Source: Polycladomyces abyssicola (GTDB lineage Bacteria; Bacillota; Bacilli; Thermoactinomycetales; JIR-001). From it: a DNA stretch of 64,000 nt. Under the pieces are notes generated by a model. That model ran no database searches and was not told the DNA's origin. It saw only the letters and a program-made list of their open reading frames with translations. Shown in pieces: positions 36,832-57,024 of this stretch. Numbering within the stretch: position 1 is the first letter of the stretch; every line of letters starts with the position of its first letter. The stretch is taken from positions 856,001-920,000 of the forward strand of contig NZ_AP024601.1 of NCBI RefSeq assembly GCF_018326425.1, in the 5' to 3' direction. Made by a program: the position numbers and the translations under genes.

Positions 36832-37106
36832 AAATTTCAATTGAGGACTGGCCATGACGAGGACATGAAACGGTCACACATGGTTGCCAGAGAACGGGGG
36901 CCATCGGCTGGAAGCCCTCGAACCCGCTGGTGATCGTTTTACCACCTCCGATGCTGCAACCGGGAACGTTCGTTTGGGACGAATCAGTATCGGTTGCCGG
37001 GTTCACGCCGTTATCCGTGATGAGAGGGGCATGTCCGATCTGGACGTGTCCGAAAAAGGGTGGAACCACGACAACCACGCTCGTCCCTTTGGGCCGGGCG
37101 TTTTTT
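36832..37106 (+). ncRNA. Threonine T-box leader of thrS
   Basis: The T-box sequence AAGGGTGGAACCACG lies at 37056-37070, followed by a terminator (37078-37106) with arms CGCTCGTCCC and GGGCCGGGCG and a T-run. Upstream, GCTGGAAGCC-like stem I elements and a likely specifier ACC (36941-36943, Thr) followed by A are visible. Uncharged tRNA-Thr would favour the antiterminator and thrS expression. Confidence 0.88.
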
Positions 37107-39114: not shown

Positions 39115-39226
39115 GTGATCAAGCAGAAGCGCCCCGCTTCTCACCTTTCGACGCATTTGCGCAGTTGGAAGGTTGTCATCGTCGATGATCGGAAGCAAAG
39201 TGTGGGCGTGTGCCCGCACTTTTTTG
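39115..39226 (+). ncRNA. L20-type autoregulatory leader of infC-rpmI-rplT
   Basis: A leader of about 150 bases before infC. It contains AGAAGCG-CGCTTCT and CACCTTTCG elements and ends in a terminator (39198-39225) with arms AAGTGTGGGC and GCCCGCACTT plus a T-run. In Bacillus subtilis, ribosomal protein L20 binds such a leader and promotes termination. The family assignment rests on context and overall layout. Confidence 0.65.
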
Positions 39227-39262
39227 TTATCCAGCCCAAATACCCCTCGGAGGTGGCAAGTT

Positions 39263-49536: not shown

Positions 49537-49640
49537 TTTGATTAATTGTCACAAAAAGTTTGAAATTATGCATTTACCTCACCTCAAGCTGATGGAATCG
49601 CTTTCGCAAAATTTTTAGACAAAAAGAGTGAGTTAACCGG

Positions 49641-49670
49641 TTGACATCCGCAAACTGAGGTGACTATAAT
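49641..49670 (+). promoter_or_regulatory. Promoter of the ilvB-N-C-leuA-B operon
   Basis: Perfect TTGACA (49641-49646) and TATAAT (49665-49670), 18-base spacer. The untranslated leader is about 580 bases. Confidence 0.85.
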
Positions 49671-49717
49671 AACACCTAAATAATCAAAATGGTTCAGTAA
49701 ATCGGACAACGAGCAGT

Positions 49718-49906
49718 TCTGGTTGGGAGGGTGTCTAGGGTTCCGCCCGCGAGGGGACTGTGACCGAGCGACACCAGCACTCGCCCGACGGCGGGTGTAC
49801 ACCGTGAGGATAAAAGCCTCTGCGGCAGGTTCTGACCAGACTCGATACCTGTGTGCATTTTTGGCTGGGGATCGAGTCGTTCACCTGTTGGAAGAGGCTT
49901 GTTTTT
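49718..49906 (+). ncRNA. ykkC-superfamily riboswitch, probably ppGpp type (2a), with terminator
   Basis: TCTGGT (49718) and ACCAGA (49835) close the aptamer. Inside, GTGTCTAGGGTTCCG, GGACTGTGACCGAG and ACACCGTGAGGATAAAAGCC match the ykkC core. Upstream of ilv genes, subtype 2a (ppGpp) is expected rather than guanidine or PRPP. AAGCCTCT in the core (49814-49821) can pair with AGAGGCTT (49893-49900) followed by GTTTTT, giving a terminator that the folded aptamer would block. Confidence 0.8.
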
Positions 49907-49914
49907 ATTGACTA

Positions 49915-50240
49915 AAAAAACTGATGAGTTGAAAGGCTGTGAAAAGGACGGGAGCCGGATGCCGTGTCACAGAAAGTCCCGGGTTGATGAGACGGGATCA
50001 CGCGCCGGTTGTCCCTCTCACCTTGGAGCCGACCATCGAAACGGGATGCCCACGATGCATCCCCGAGTAGGTGTTCTCCGGTTGTCGCCGTTATCGACGC
50101 GGTGCGCTCGCAGAAAGCGCACCGGTGGAGGCCGTTCGCCGCGAGGCGGCGGTGAAGTTGGGTGGTACCGCGAACCTTTCGCCCCAATATAGACGACAGG
50201 TGTGTTCGCTGTTGTCAACGGGTGAAAGGTTTTCATTTTT
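49915..50240 (+). ncRNA. Leucine-type T-box leader
   Basis: Second element of the leader. The T-box sequence GTTGGGTGGTACCGCG lies at 50157-50172; the terminator uses AACCTTTCGCCC (50173-50184) and GGGTGAAAGGTT (50220-50231) with TTTTTT following. A likely specifier CTC (50017-50019, Leu) precedes A, and GAGTAGG stands before the antiterminator stem. Uncharged tRNA-Leu should switch it on, as in the Bacillus subtilis ilv-leu leader. Confidence 0.88.
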
Positions 50241-50258
50241 TCAAAGGGGGTTTCAAAA

Positions 50259-51992
50259 TTGGCCACTACGGCAACGATGACGACGGATCAGAAGCATACG
50301 TCGGCAGATGGTGAGCTGACCGGTTCCGAGATTTTGCTCCGCTGTCTGATTGAAGAGAAAGTGGAATTCATTTTCGGTTATCCAGGTGGAGCGGTGCTTC
50401 CGATTTACGATTCGCTGTATTACGGAAGCATCAAACATATTTTGTACCGCCACGAACAAGGGGCGATACACGCCGCAGACGGATACGCGCGGGCGACGGG
50501 CAAACCGGGAGTGGTGATTGCCACGTCCGGACCGGGGGCGACCAACTTGGTGACGGGGATTGCCACTGCGCAGATGGATTCGATCCCGTTAGTGTGTATC
50601 ACCGGCAACGTCCCGCAAAATCTGATCGGTACGGATGCGTTCCAGGAAGCGGACATCACGGGCATTACCATGCCAATCACCAAGCACAGTTATCTGGTGC
50701 AGGATGTCAGAGACCTGCCGAGGGTGGTGAAAGAAGCGTTTCATATCGCCTCCACCGGACGGCCAGGGCCGGTGCTGATCGACATCCCCAAGGATGTCTC
50801 CAATGCCAAGGCGCCGTTTTCTTATCCGGAAACAGTATTCATTCGTGGGTATCAGCCTACGACGAATCCGCATCCGCTGCAGATCGAGAAATTGCATCAG
50901 GCAATCGCCGAGTCGAAACGACCGCTGATTTTGGCTGGCGGAGGAGTGGTCACCTCCGGTGCCGATCAGGAATTGATCGCGTTCGCGGAGCGGGCAAAAA
51001 TTCCGGTGACGACAACATTGATGGGGATTGGTGGCTTCCCGGGCACGCATCCGTTGTGGTTGGGGATGCCGGGGATGCACGGAACGGTGGCGGCCAACCG
51101 TGCATTGCTGGAATGTGATTTGCTGATCGGTATCGGAGCCCGGTTCGATGACCGGGTGACCATGGGGCGGATTGACAAATTCGCCACGAGTGCCAAGATC
51201 GTTCACATCGATATCGACCCCGCAGAAATCGGCAAAAACGTCGACACTTACATCCCGATCGTCGGTGATGTGAAGCGGGTGTTGGAAGTAGCACTGCAGG
51301 ACCTGCCGGTCAGTCAGTCCGAAGCTTGGTTGCAAAATCTGAAAGATTTGAAACAGCAGTACCCACTCACCTTCAAACAAAGTGACAACACGCTGAAACC
51401 GCAATGGGTGATCCAACACCTGTATGAAACAACGGGTGGAGATGCGATCGTCACCACCGACGTGGGTCAGCATCAGATGTGGGTGGCGCAATATTTCCAC
51501 TTCTCCCGACCGCGTTCGTTCATCAGCTCCGGCGGACTGGGTACGATGGGCTTCGGGTTCCCCGCCGCGATCGGCGCGCAGTTGGCGTACCCCGACCGAA
51601 CGGTGATCTCCGTGACGGGAGACGGCGGCTTCCAGATGACCGCCCAGGAGCTGGCTGTGGTGGCACTGGCCAACATTCCCGTCAAAGTGGCGATCATCAA
51701 CAACCAATGCTTGGGCATGGTCCGGCAATGGCAGGAAGTGTTTTATCAACGCCGCTACAGTGAAGTGGACTTGTCCGGCAGCCCGGATTTCGTCAAGCTG
51801 GCGGAAGCCTACGGTGTCAAAGGTATGCGGGCATGTACGCAGGAGGAAGCACGTCAGGCTTGGCGGGAGGCTCTGGATCATCCCGGCCCGGTCGTGATCG
51901 ACTTCCAGGTGGACCCGGAGGAAAATGTCTATCCGATGGTGGCGCCGGGAGCAGGGCTGGATGAGATGATGCTGGGGGATGAGAAACCATGA
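50259..51992 (+). CDS. ilvB: Acetolactate synthase large subunit
   Basis: ThDP-dependent first common enzyme of valine, leucine and isoleucine synthesis; 577 residues. [16 protein letters not shown] carries the catalytic Glu, and [12 protein letters not shown] to AIINN is the ThDP site. The start is TTG 50259, eight bases after AAAGGGGG. The stop overlaps ilvN by four bases. Confidence 0.96.
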
Positions 51993-52495
51993 GACACATC
52001 ATTTCGATTTTGGTCAACAACCAGCCCCGTGTGCTGGCACGGGTGGCCAGCCTCTTCGGCAGACGCAATTTCAACATCGAAAGCATCAGCGTCGGTGAGT
52101 CCGAAGAACCCGGTCTGTCGCGGATCGTCATTGTGACTCACGGAGACGCCCGAACGATGGAACAGGTTTCCAAACATTTGCACAAATTGATCGACGTGAT
52201 CAAGGTGCAGGATTTAAGCATCCAACAGTCAGTGGCCCGGGAGCTGCTGCTGGTCAAGGTGGGGGCCACTGCTTCCAATCGGGCGGAGATCCAGGGGATC
52301 ATCGAACCGTTCCGGGCGTCGGTCGTCGATGTCGGTATCAACAGTCTGATGATCCAGGCAACCGGTGATCGCGAAAAACTGGATGCACTCATCGAACTGC
52401 TGCGCCCGTACGGCATCAAGGAACTGGCCCGCACGGGGATCACCGCCCTGCCGCGCAGCATGCAGATCCAACCCAAAGCGCATATGCATGCGTGA
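51989..52495 (+). CDS. ilvN: Acetolactate synthase small (regulatory) subunit
   Basis: Valine-feedback subunit of 168 residues: N-terminal ACT domain ([19 protein letters not shown]) and a C-terminal regulatory domain (about 85-160). Its ATG overlaps the ilvB stop (ATGA), fitting a fixed subunit ratio. Confidence 0.95.
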
Positions 52496-52553
52496 TGAGT
52501 TTGTCAAAGCGGATTCGCTCTCATCACATACATTTTACGAGGAGGAATTCAAC

Positions 52554-53567
52554 ATGGTGAAAATGTACTATGACCAAGATGCACAACTGGACGTATTGAA
52601 AGGGAAAACCGTAGCAGTGATCGGGTATGGCAGCCAAGGTCACGCACAAGCGCAAAATCTTCGGGACAGTGGCGTTCACGTTATCATCGGCCTTCGTCCG
52701 GGCCGCTCTTGGGAACAGGCGGAACAGGACGGCTTCGAAGTATTTGAGGTAGACGAAGCCGTTCGTCGCGCGGACGTCGTGCAGCTTCTGCTGCCGGACG
52801 AAGTGCAGGCCAAGGTGTATCAAGAACAGGTGGCACCTCATTTGAAATCGGGATCGGCCCTGTTTTTCTCCCACGGTTTCAACATCCATTTTGGTCAGAT
52901 CCAGCCGGCAAGCGATGTGGACGTGGTGTTGATTGCACCAAAGGGGCCGGGTCACCTGGTGCGTCGCGTCTATGTAGAAGGCTTCGGCGTCCCGGCATTG
53001 ATCGCGGTGCATCAGAACGCCAGCGGGCAGGCCAAGGAATTGGGATTGGCTTATGCCAAAGGCATCGGTGCCACCCGGGCCGGCGTGATCGAAACTACTT
53101 TCAAAGAGGAAACGGAAACGGACTTGTTCGGCGAGCAAGCCGTGTTGTGCGGCGGTGTGAGCGAGTTGGTCAAAGCCGGTTTTGAAACGCTGGTGGAAGC
53201 GGGCTATCAGCCGGAAATCGCCTATTTCGAGTGTTTGCACGAATTGAAATTGATCGTCGACTTGATGTATGAGGGCGGTTTGGCCAACATGCGGTATTCA
53301 GTCAGCGACACCGCTGAGTACGGTGACTATTCCAGCGGCAAACGCGTTGTGGGAGAAGCATCGCGTCAAGCGATGAAGGAAGTGTTGAAGGAAATCCAGG
53401 ACGGCACCTTTGCCCGCAACTGGATCGACGAAAACCGGCAAGGGCGCCCCAACTTTCAACGGTTACGGGAAGAGGAGAGAAACCATCAACTGGAACGGGT
53501 GGGAGCGGAATTGCGCCGCATGATGGCTTGGCTGGACGGTAAGAAAAAAGAACCGGTACAGTCCTGA
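52554..53567 (+). CDS. ilvC: Ketol-acid reductoisomerase, class I
   Basis: Converts acetolactate to dihydroxyisovalerate; 337 residues. Nucleotide motif [14 protein letters not shown], phosphate loop RPGRSW suggesting NADPH, and metal-binding [12 protein letters not shown] and [17 protein letters not shown] 52554 follows GAGGAGG; the earlier open frame overlaps ilvN. Confidence 0.96.
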
Positions 53568-53584
53568 CGAAAAGGGGGATGACC

Positions 53585-55138
53585 ATGCGAACGGTTCAGA
53601 TCTTTGACACCACTTTGAGGGACGGCGAACAATCGCCCGGCGTCAATCTGAGCACGGAGGAAAAGGTAGAAATCGCCCTGCAGCTGGAACGATTGGGTGT
53701 GAACGTCATCGAGGCGGGTTTCGCCGCCTCTTCCCCCGGTGATCAGTCGGCTGTCCGCGAGGTGGCACGAGTGGTGACCGATGCCTCCGTGGCCAGCTTG
53801 TCACGTGCGGTGCCACAGGATATCGACGCGGCGTGGGAGGCGTTGAAAGAAGCGAAGCAGCCCGCCATTCACATCTTTCTCGCCACCTCGCCCATTCATC
53901 GGGAATACAAGCTGAGAAAAACCAAGGAGCAGGTATTGGAGCAGGCGGCAGAGGCGGTGCGGTATGCCAAACGGTTTTTCCCCGTAGTGGAGTTTTCTCC
54001 GGAAGACGCGGGGCGCACGGAGATCGACTTTCTCTGCGAGGTGGCGGACGTCGTCATCCGAGCCGGTGCGGACGTGCTCAACATCCCGGATACGGTGGGG
54101 TACCTGACGCCGGATGAATACGCCAACATCTTTGTGCAATTGCGTGAACGGGTACCGGGGATCGACCGGGTGAAGCTGAGTGCACACTGTCACGATGATC
54201 TCGGATTGGCGGTGGCCAACAGTTTGGCTGCGATCCGGGCCGGAGTGGATCAAGTGGAGGGAGCCATCAACGGGATCGGAGAACGCGCAGGCAACGCGGC
54301 ACTGGAAGAAGTGGTGATGGCGTTGTACACACGCCAATCCTATTATCAAGTCGCCACTACCATTCGACCTGCTGAAATTGCACGGACCAGCAGGCTGGTC
54401 AGCAAACTGACGGGGATGCCGGTGCCGGCCAACAAGGCGATCGTCGGTGCCAACGCCTTTGCCCACGAATCGGGCATCCATCAGGACGGTATGTTGAAAC
54501 ACCAAGAAACATACGAGATCATCCGGCCGGAGACTGTCGGCTTTTCTCAGACCAAGCTGGTTTTGGGCAAACACTCGGGTCGGCACGCATTTCGGGAACG
54601 GTTGGAAACTTTGGGTTATACGTTGTCCGAAGAGCGGATCAATGCCTTGTTTGCCCGTTTCAAGGAATTGGCAGATCGCAAAAAGTCGCTCACCGATGAG
54701 GACTTGATCGCACTGGCGGAGGAAAAGCACGGCGAGGTTGCGGAGTTTTTCGAATTGGAATCGATCCAGCTCTCCTACGGCAATCATGCATTACCAACGG
54801 CATCGCTTCGTCTGAGAAACCGGCAAACGGGAGATGAAGTGGAAGAAGCGGCATGCGGCAACGGCTCGATCGACGCCATCTTCAAAGCGATCGATCGGGC
54901 GACGGGAGAACAAGTGGAATTGCTCGACTACAAAGTGGCTTCCAACACGCAGGGTACGGATGCACTGGGTGAGGGGTACGTCCAGCTGCGTCAAGGTGAG
55001 TTGACCGTGCAGGGTCGGGGAGTAAGTACCGACGTGCTGGAAGCGAGCGCACGGGCGTATATCGATGCGATCAATCGCCTGCTGACTCGAAAGCAGTCGA
55101 AAAACCAGGATGCTACGTTGAATGTGGTATTGGGATGA
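53585..55138 (+). CDS. leuA: 2-isopropylmalate synthase
   Basis: First committed step of leucine synthesis; 517 residues. [19 protein letters not shown] opens the TIM barrel, [15 protein letters not shown] binds the metal, and a C-terminal allosteric domain (about 390-517) should give leucine feedback. ATG 53585 is preferred over ATG 53579, which touches the GGGGG ribosome site. Confidence 0.95.
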
Positions 55139-55162: not shown

Positions 55163-56281
55163 ATGGGAACGGTGAAAAAAATCGCAGTGCTTCCCGGTGA
55201 CGGCATCGGGCCGGAAATCATGGAGGAAGCGCTGAAAGTATTGCGAAAGGTGGAAGACCTGTTCGGCCATTCGTTTCAGTTTACGTTCGGGATGGCGGGA
55301 GGCGGGGCGGTTGACCGCGTCGGGAACCCGCTTCCCGAAGAGACGCTTTCGCTCTGTAAACAATCGGATGCCGTGTTACTGGCGGCGGTCGGCGGTCCAA
55401 AATGGGACAACAACCCGCCGGAGTTGCGACCCGAGCAGGCATTGTTGGGATTGCGCAAATCGCTGAACCTGTACGCCAATCTGCGGCCGGCCGTCCTGTT
55501 TGAAGGATTGGAAAATGCCTCCACCCTCAAACCAGAAGTGGTGAAGGGTGTCGATCTGCTTGTGGTGCGCGAGCTGACCGGTGGCATCTACTTCGGTGAA
55601 AAGAAACGGGAGCGGTTGGAAGACGGCCAACAGGCGACGGATACACTGGTGTACCACGAGCGCGAAGTGGAGCGGATCGTGCGGCGGGCTTTTGAAATTG
55701 CGCGGGGTCGTCGGAAAAAGCTGACCTCAGTAGACAAGGCCAACATTTTGGAAAGCTCCCGCCTGTGGCGGTCGGTGGTGGACCGCGTGGCACGCGATTA
55801 CCCGGATGTTCAGGTGGAGCACGTACTGGTAGACAACTGCGCCATGCAGTTGATCCGTCGGCCGGCAGACTTTGACGTGATCGTCACCGAGAACATGTTC
55901 GGTGATATTTTGAGTGATGAAACCGCCATGCTGACGGGGTCCATCGGTTTGTTGCCATCAGCCAGCCTGGGGGAGGGCATGACAGGACTGTACGAACCCG
56001 TTCACGGTTCCGCGCCGGACATCGCCGGCCAAGGCGTGGCCAATCCAGCTGCCATGATCTTGTCCGCGGCGATGATGCTGCGTCATTCTTTCGGATACGA
56101 GGAAGCGGCGACAGCGGTGGAGCAGGCGGTTCGCAAGGTGCTGGCCGACGGGCATCGTACCGCCGACCTCGCCGGACCGGGTACGTTGGCGGTTGGCACG
56201 GAAGAATTCGGTGACCTCGTCGTGGAAGCGATGAACGCTTATGAACCGGACCCGAAGGTGCCGTTGGAAGTTGTGATGTAG
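55163..56281 (+). CDS. leuB: 3-isopropylmalate dehydrogenase
   Basis: NAD-dependent oxidative decarboxylase of 372 residues: [24 protein letters not shown], and [20 protein letters not shown] with the metal Asp residues. Usually followed by leuC-leuD; here a terminator follows, so isopropylmalate isomerase must be encoded elsewhere. Confidence 0.95.
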
Positions 56282-56330
56282 AGCAGAATAAAGGGAAACC
56301 GGCTTTGAATTGAGAATCTAAGCCTATTGA

Positions 56331-56358
56331 AAACCCAGCGGTTTAACCGCTGGGTTTG
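56331..56358 (+). terminator. Terminator of the ilv-leu operon
   Basis: AACCCAGCGGTT and AACCGCTGGGTT form an almost loopless stem, followed by TGTGTTG. Confidence 0.75.
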
Positions 56359-57024
56359 TGTTGTCCTGATCATTCAAAATGAAACATGGATAAACCAAAA
56401 GGGCGATTGGATATGAGCCAACAGAAGAACATAATATTTGGCGAAGTCCCCCAGACGCGCGACAGTATGGCCGAGCGATGGTGATCGTACACAGCTGGCT
56501 TCGGGTCGTTGGGCTTGTCTGTGGCGGACCGGTGGCACTGGTGAAGGGCGAAAACCACAATGGCCGGTGCCCCCGTATGGAAAGAGGATGGACGCGAATG
56601 GTTTACCTATCGGGAGATTTAACACGAAATGGAGCGGTTCGCCGAATGGGGTGAAACTTTTGGGCGGAGATGGGCTGTGTGACCAGGGGCATGGTTAGAT
56701 TGGCGGAGGAGAAACTGTTTTCACAGCATGCAGCAGTCGACTTTGCCAAGGAGTGGTTGGAACGACAGCGGCAGAAAGACAAGACTTTCGGTAATGGGAA
56801 TGCCCCACTCTTGAAGCGTGGGATTCCTCGCTAGCGTCCTCATTTTCATTCTGCTTGTGAACCGCAAGCTCGGGGTTGTCCGCAACTCGTTCATACGATT
56901 TCTACAAGTCAGTAGCAGGGTCCGTATCATCGAGTGAACTGTTGCGGGGACACGAGTTTTTCAATAAAGCCCGTTCATTTCCCCTCCGTTAGGTAGACGG
57001 AGGGGGATTGGATCAAAATCATTG
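56359..57024. other. 666-base gap with a possible IS200/IS605-type remnant
   Basis: No convincing gene. A hairpin GGAATGCCCCAC / GTGGGATTCC at 56797-56827 resembles the right-end/omega-RNA hairpins of IS605-type elements. Open codons just before it read KEWLERQRQKDKTFGNGNA without a recognisable TnpB. A second hairpin CCCCTCCGT/ACGGAGGGG (about 56979-57006) lies next to the minus-strand gene at 57025 and may be its terminator, though without a T-run. Confidence 0.3.

Follow-up and report, generated by a model that had tools for sequence, protein, structure and literature searches.

A ppGpp riboswitch of ykkC subtype 2a and a leucine T-box, two RNA switches in series that both end in an intrinsic terminator of their own, very probably precede the ilvBNC-leuAB genes of Polycladomyces abyssicola. 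Within the window, i.e., the whole stretch of 64,000 nucleotides that was analyzed, the leader runs in the order promoter, ykkC-fold aptamer, terminator 1, leucine T-box and terminator 2, and is followed by ilvB-ilvN-ilvC-leuA-leuB (Table 1). The initial annotation had proposed a ykkC-type element and a leucine T-box in tandem before ilvB, each ending in a terminator of its own. The tandem itself is borne out by matches to the Rfam models RF00442 (49724-49826; 48.4 bits, E 1.7e-7) and RF00230 and by a CTC specifier, and the separate terminators are borne out by two hairpins that both lie at z -4.73 relative to shuffled sequences. Since both matches score under the Rfam gathering thresholds (63 for RF00442 and 93 for RF00230), a default Rfam scan of the 64-kb window lists neither element. 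Annotation that relies only on Rfam can miss such leaders or name the ppGpp unit a guanidine switch.

Table 1. Features of the ilvB leader and of the genes behind it, in window positions.
Feature	Position	Strand	Support or remark
Promoter TTGACA-18-TATAAT	49641..49670	+	12/12 consensus bases
Promoter-proximal conserved block TATAATAACACCTAAATAAT	49665..49684	+	20 bases; one match in own genome
Probable ykkC subtype 2a (ppGpp-class) aptamer, including end helix P0	49717..49835	+	R1 84.0, R2 57.0, RF00442 48.4 bits; covariation (n=20)
Terminator 1	49814..49909	+	5' arm 49814-49830 in aptamer 3' strand; 3' arm 49883-49900; then GTTTTTATT
T-box leader, stem I to antiterminator	49930..50189	+	RF00230 67.4 bits, E 2.1e-14
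Specifier codon CTC (leucine)	50017..50019	+	invariant in 20/20
T-box antiterminator TTGGGTGGTACCGCGAACCTTTCGCCCCAA with UGGU bulge	50158..50187	+	sequence and fold
Terminator 2 (T-box terminator) and U-run	50170..50241	+	fold energy
ilvB, acetolactate synthase large subunit	50259..51992	+	TIGR00118 853.7 bits; TTG start
ilvN, small subunit	51989..52495	+	TIGR00119 197.9 bits
ilvC, ketol-acid reductoisomerase	52551..53567	+	TIGR00465 473.4 bits; start chosen by us
leuA, 2-isopropylmalate synthase	53579..55138	+	TIGR00973 740.3 bits
leuB, 3-isopropylmalate dehydrogenase	55163..56281	+	TIGR00169 536.3 bits

The promoter is of the sigma-70 type, with the -35 hexamer at 49641-49646, an 18-base spacer and the -10 hexamer at 49665-49670, and it is the sole promoter-like site reported in a scan of 49540-50300. 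A second promoter between the ykkC element and the T-box was rejected, as none was reported in this interval; thus, two separate expression platforms lie under a single promoter. A promoter of the TTGACA-TATAAT type is likewise found 77-103 bases 5' of the ykkC core in all 20 tandem leaders considered below. On its upstream side, the leader is adjoined by ilvD. Downstream, the list of open reading frames holds no leuC-size frame on the plus strand from leuB to 60000. A terminator-like hairpin lies past leuB, at approximately 56332-56358, and is followed by a stretch without a clear gene (window positions 56282-57000). This gene-poor stretch contains a palindrome near 56796-56830, which we take to resemble the ends of IS200/IS605 elements.

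For comparison, ykkC elements were gathered at two levels: in the order, 27 of 42 genomes gave a match; in the class, 232 of 398 genomes matched model R1 at E<=0.001, and 40 places were fetched. The elements were then sorted by the gene behind each. The ykkC - T-box - ilvB tandem was found in 17 of the 42 genomes of the order, and three more tandems were present among the 40 class places, namely L136 and L139 before ilvB and L118 before ilvE. Three models were built from the sorted elements. Model R1 (subtype 2a) comprises 21 stand-alone elements from other genera, none of them a tandem, with 18 before ilvE and three before an ABC transporter gene. Model R2 (subtype 2b) comprises 12 of 17 elements that precede a Xan_ur_permease gene, purK or purQ, and model R3 (subtype 1) comprises seven elements, each of which precedes a small multidrug resistance protein.

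The initial annotation had favored the ppGpp subtype, and a comparison fixed in advance, whether subtype 1 or 2b would outscore 2a, came out in favor of this assignment: the ilvB-leader aptamer reaches 84.0 bits with R1, 57.0 bits with R2 and 48.4 bits with the guanidine-I model RF00442. With model R3, nothing in the window was reported at E<=0.1, a result of little weight given the implausible RNAalifold structure of R3; because of this structure, the comparison with guanidine-I switches is carried by the Rfam model and one diagnostic base. As controls, five PRPP elements that had not entered R2 (L133, L134, L148, L150, L153) were scored, giving 98.1, 111.4, 97.3, 110.8 and 101.9 bits with R2 and 68.3, 68.2, 67.9, 67.4 and 62.7 bits with R1, and six guanidine-type elements reached 42-51 bits with R1. 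Elements in a 2a context outside the R1 training set also scored higher with R1 than with R2, although the gap falls to as little as 9 bits (L121, 83.3 versus 74.2) because the two models have much sequence in common.

Published work on the ykkC family offers two further markers: an A as opposed to a pyrimidine (C49) separates guanidine-I from subtype 2, and position 96 is G in the PRPP class but not in the ppGpp class (PMC6031431). Position 96 was mapped by our own alignment to PRPP elements and not from the crystal sequence. Taken as the base that precedes the NNGG block in the last strand, this position is U in the ilvB leader, T in 20/20 tandems and G in 17/17 PRPP elements; among the other 2a-context elements, it is G in one of 25 within the order (L010) and in none of 13 outside. 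If the position is instead counted as the third base 3' of AARCC, G occurs in 7/25 and 5/13 of the same two sets, the marker being alignment-dependent because the stretch after AARCC varies in length. These data bear on the possibility of a PRPP (2b) riboswitch as the first element. Subtypes 2a and 2b adopt the same fold, and both possess P0 as well as a pyrimidine at the subtype position. Nevertheless, the higher score with R1 than with R2 (84.0 against 57.0 bits), the U at the position where every PRPP element has G, and the presence of a BCAA operon behind the element rather than purine genes render this assignment highly improbable, and it was rejected on the model scores and the diagnostic base.

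Still less probable is a guanidine-I riboswitch, the name that RF00442 and a 2025 survey would give to the element. RF00442 is the only riboswitch family besides the T-box that matches the ilvB leader, and the survey lists 'T-box Guanidine' tandems on ilv and leu genes (PMC12452182). Against this reading, the match lies under the cut-off, and the base after CCRAG is C in the ilvB leader, whereas it is A in 7/7 guanidine-type elements; these seven reach 82-92 bits with RF00442 and all precede small multidrug resistance proteins. A low RF00442 score proves nothing by itself, because three divergent guanidine-type elements (L014, L024, L028) score 60, 53 and 32 bits. The rejection was therefore based on the model scores together with the diagnostic base. 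A pyrimidine follows CCRAG in 20/20 tandem aptamers (C or T), and in the other 2a-context sets in 24/25 elements by script (the exception, L015, being a loop match) and in 12/13 (L138 has G).

The fold of the aptamer was assessed by covariation across the 20 tandems. In this alignment, which was fitted to the model structure, 96.7% of cells are paired and 18 pairs are changed on both sides, compared with a mean of 9.7 for shuffled alignments and at most 7 for slid controls. For the end helix P0 (helix 1), 93.3% of cells are paired, with two-sided changes in 4/6 pairs. The aptamer alone is no stabler than shuffled sequences (z 0.01), and the stability of the T-box antiterminator is barely above that of its shuffles (z -1.41; 20/200); the case for both structures is consequently comparative. 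The ppGpp riboswitch is ykkC subtype 2a (PNAS 2018, doi 10.1073/pnas.1720406115, as cited in PMC6031431, PMC7266159 and PMC10687018), and the ilvB-leader element resembles it in its core, the pyrimidine at position 49, the lack of G at position 96, the P0 helix and the strand common to aptamer and terminator. The BCAA genes behind the element agree with the BCAA or other amino-acid context of the ppGpp class. The same genome also carries a stand-alone 2a element before ilvE (L001:1494-1617; G000:C1:1071547-1071670), with 115.9 bits for R1 and a terminator-like hairpin.

Within the tandem set, P. abyssicola and two congeners have the lowest R1 scores of the 20 aptamers (84.0 for P. abyssicola), as would be expected if the leader were a relic in which one of the two units had decayed in this genome. 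Yet in three species of the genus the core bases, P0, both terminators, the specifier and the bulge are all intact, and decay is scarcely credible in light of such retention.

Terminator 1 is linked to the aptamer through a common strand. The segment GCCUCUGCGGCAGG forms the 3' half of the last aptamer hairpin and of the end helix, and it is also the 5' arm of terminator 1, so that the two structures are mutually exclusive by base pairing. The segment 49812-49907 folds with -41.8 kcal/mol, a value equaled by one of 200 shuffles. Pairing of the aptamer 3' strand into a terminator was found in 20/20 tandem leaders, with 0/100 shuffles doing so for each. Free folding of the leader favors terminator 1 and breaks the 3' half of the aptamer, as expected without ligand, which is no proof of switching. 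A consensus terminator scan of 49540-50300 listed neither terminator 1 nor terminator 2, because their loops exceed its limit. In length, the terminator 1 hairpin of the genus (89-91 nt, including an additional internal hairpin) differs from that of the other 14 tandems of the order (64-72 nt); outside the order, it measures 72 (L136), 66 (L139) and 116 bases (L118). For a ppGpp switch of another bacterium, it was shown that the ligand favors the aptamer helix over a competing terminator of this type and that read-through results (PMC10687018).

The second unit possesses the antiterminator motif GGGTGGTACCGCG together with the RF00230 match, the score of which lies under the gathering value of 93. 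Its terminator (fold of 50165-50242) reaches -29.7 kcal/mol, matched by 0/200 shuffles, and is mutually exclusive with the antiterminator. In the T-box alignment (n=20), two-sided changes were observed in 28/40 predicted pairs. The leucine specificity proposed by the initial annotation agrees with the CTC codon at 50017-50019 and with a tRNA-Leu(GAG) gene in the genome, whose product has discriminator A and ends in ACCA, thus fitting the UGGU of the antiterminator. The ilv-leu T-box of Bacillus subtilis also works with an antiterminator/terminator pair, and the P. abyssicola element has in common with it this pair, the leucine tRNA and the operon. It differs by the second sensor in front and by scoring below the Rfam cut-off; the account given in PMC12452182 presents the B. 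subtilis operon with a single T-box. A pairing between a promoter-proximal CACCTA and the TAGGTG of the T-box was considered and dropped, as it is not kept in relatives on inspection by eye. A further T-box lies elsewhere in the window at 36845-37091 (G000:C1:892845-893091; 69.4 bits, under the Rfam cut-off), upstream of an L20 leader at 39115-39231.

Taken together, these elements suggest the following course of events. From the one promoter, RNA polymerase would make the aptamer first. Without ppGpp, the strand GCCUCUGCGGCAGG would pair downstream into terminator 1 and transcription would stop; with ppGpp bound, this strand would be held and the polymerase would continue. The T-box would be made next, and the anticodon of uncharged tRNA-Leu(GAG) could pair with CUC and its ACCA end with UGGU, holding the antiterminator so that the polymerase enters ilvB, whereas with charged tRNA terminator 2 would be free to form. 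Because the polymerase would have to get past two terminators in succession, each controlled by one ON switch, full expression should need both signals (AND logic). The ligand, the ON direction and the AND logic are what we infer from these parts, and a RelA/SpoT gene is present in the genome. The BCAA genes would accordingly reach full expression in cells that combine uncharged leucine tRNA with an active stringent response, a sense drawn from published tandems (PMC9481103; PMC5912903) and from the arrangement described here.

Both sensors could instead be real without forming an AND gate. Terminator 1 might be leaky at the usual concentrations of ppGpp, or ppGpp might rise whenever tRNA-Leu is uncharged, in which case the T-box by itself would set expression and the ppGpp unit would do no more than trim it. 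The two inputs are indeed not independent, given that uncharged tRNA activates RelA (PMC7266159; PMC5912903). In addition, 11 other genomes of the order have an ilvB T-box with CTC specifier and no ykkC element, and a T-box must therefore suffice for these relatives. Conversely, in two class genomes (L117, L146) a 2a element stands before an ilvB-like gene and the T-box motif is missing. A leaky terminator 1 is opposed by its predicted strength and by its retention in 20/20 tandem leaders. We consider this alternative improbable, and two serial switches acting as an AND gate remain the preferred explanation.

The T-box-only leaders were searched for remnants of the first unit, and in the 10 of the 11 that were searched (R1 with filters off) no degenerate ykkC element was detected, the best score being 10 bits. 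Three T-box-only ilvB leaders (L186, L178, L171) have some 150-200 other bases between promoter and T-box; these leaders contain no ykkC element and no Rfam match except the T-box. An exact-pattern scan of named genomes returned eight records, six of them with the T-box motif and CTC specifier. Among the named genomes, the tandem is carried by Melghirimyces profundicolus, M. thermohalophilus, Paludifilum halophilum, Marinithermofilum abyssi and two MAGs; the record from Kroppenstedtia guangzhouensis ends before the T-box region, and that from Candidatus Carbobacillus altaicus has no T-box motif. On an IlvB tree of 32 rows (G017 and L118 left out; midpoint root; six forks open; three long-branch rows), two changes in the tandem state suffice. 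With this weak rooting, the pattern is read as an old tandem that was lost twice, in family f6 and in G018.

The promoter region itself is conserved beyond its hexamers. The block TATAATARCAYCTAAATAAT spans the -10 and the presumed start and is retained where relatives lack the ppGpp unit; judged by position, the block is present in 17/17 tandem and 8/11 T-box-only ilvB promoters of the order. The pattern TATAATNNCACCTAAATAAT, at and just after the -10, occurs with <=2 mismatches in 33/42 genomes of the order, compared with seven matches in all 42 genomes for the same pattern read backwards. With one mismatch allowed in the 398 class genomes, its matches outside the order were the two ilvB tandems plus a further 12 places, and the backward control gave 12. 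These observations leave some room, though not much, for a broader scheme in which the two RNA switches are part of a multi-input starvation sensor with the block as a third, hitherto undescribed input at ilvB (start-site or nucleotide sensing, or a protein site), and in which the ppGpp unit is the older state, dropped by two lineages.

The CodY box has the consensus AATTTTCWGAAAATT. The best CodY-box-like site, at 49610-49624, matches it at 11/15 positions and is equaled in 13/200 shuffles, and the leader contains no CodY site with three or fewer mismatches. Two CodY-domain matches are encoded in the genome (G000:C1:2712195-2712725 and 1841002-1841529), and such matches are also found in many genomes of the order.

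The statement in the initial annotation that such tandems had been described before was confirmed in the literature. The AND gate of a ppGpp riboswitch and a leucine T-box was presented in eLife in 2018 (PMC5912903, Fig. 6C legend), and a 2022 article in RNA Biol counts 15 examples of ppGpp followed by T-box(Leu) and 16 of the reverse order as AND gates (PMC9481103, Table 2). The P. abyssicola leader has the same two units in the order of the 15, with separate expression platforms and a BCAA context, and nothing essential differs. Another tandem, that of guanine and PRPP, likewise places two sensors including a ykkC-2 aptamer in one leader, but it is described with one common terminator and IMPLY logic (PMC5912903; PMC7266159), whereas the ilvB leader has two terminators. 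The ilvB leader is thus a well-conserved further example of a gate already in print, this order of units included, and not a new kind. In a literature search combining the ppGpp riboswitch with Thermoactinomycetaceae, the phrase 'ppGpp riboswitch' appeared in none of the best matches listed, which does not prove its absence.

The 2025 survey, which used Rfam models, reports its T-box/guanidine tandems on ilv and leu genes under these labels and, on this basis, speculates that guanidine may govern the synthesis of branched-chain amino acids (PMC12452182). The model scores and diagnostic bases given above argue that the 'guanidine' elements of the survey would belong to the ppGpp class, at least where they precede ilvB in genomes of the order. 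For the specialist, the conservation, the mislabeling and the promoter block are of mild interest; the tandem as such is no surprise. Through much of one bacterial order, ilvB control regularly includes the ppGpp/T-box-Leu gate, and this order is therefore well suited for asking why an organism would couple a general starvation signal to a specific one.

Several ykkC elements in other contexts were encountered along with the tandems. In four genomes of the order, 2a elements stand before ABC transporter operons (L016, L030, L049, L050; Pfam ABC_tran for L016 and L030), the transporter genes being presumably of the natA type. Two 2a-like elements, L130:916-1027 (72.3 bits with R1) and L145:2555-2668 on the minus strand (92.1 bits), precede a GNAT acetyltransferase gene, assigned by Pfam for L130 and by a similar translation for L145; this context is not named for ppGpp switches in the literature consulted. 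Finally, a divergent ykkC element (L070:4530-4654, minus strand; G010:C2:247540-247643) with 19.3 bits for R1 and 22.3 bits for R2 lies before a HAD-like hydrolase gene, a context that fits the nucleoside-diphosphate class 2c as described in PMC7266159.
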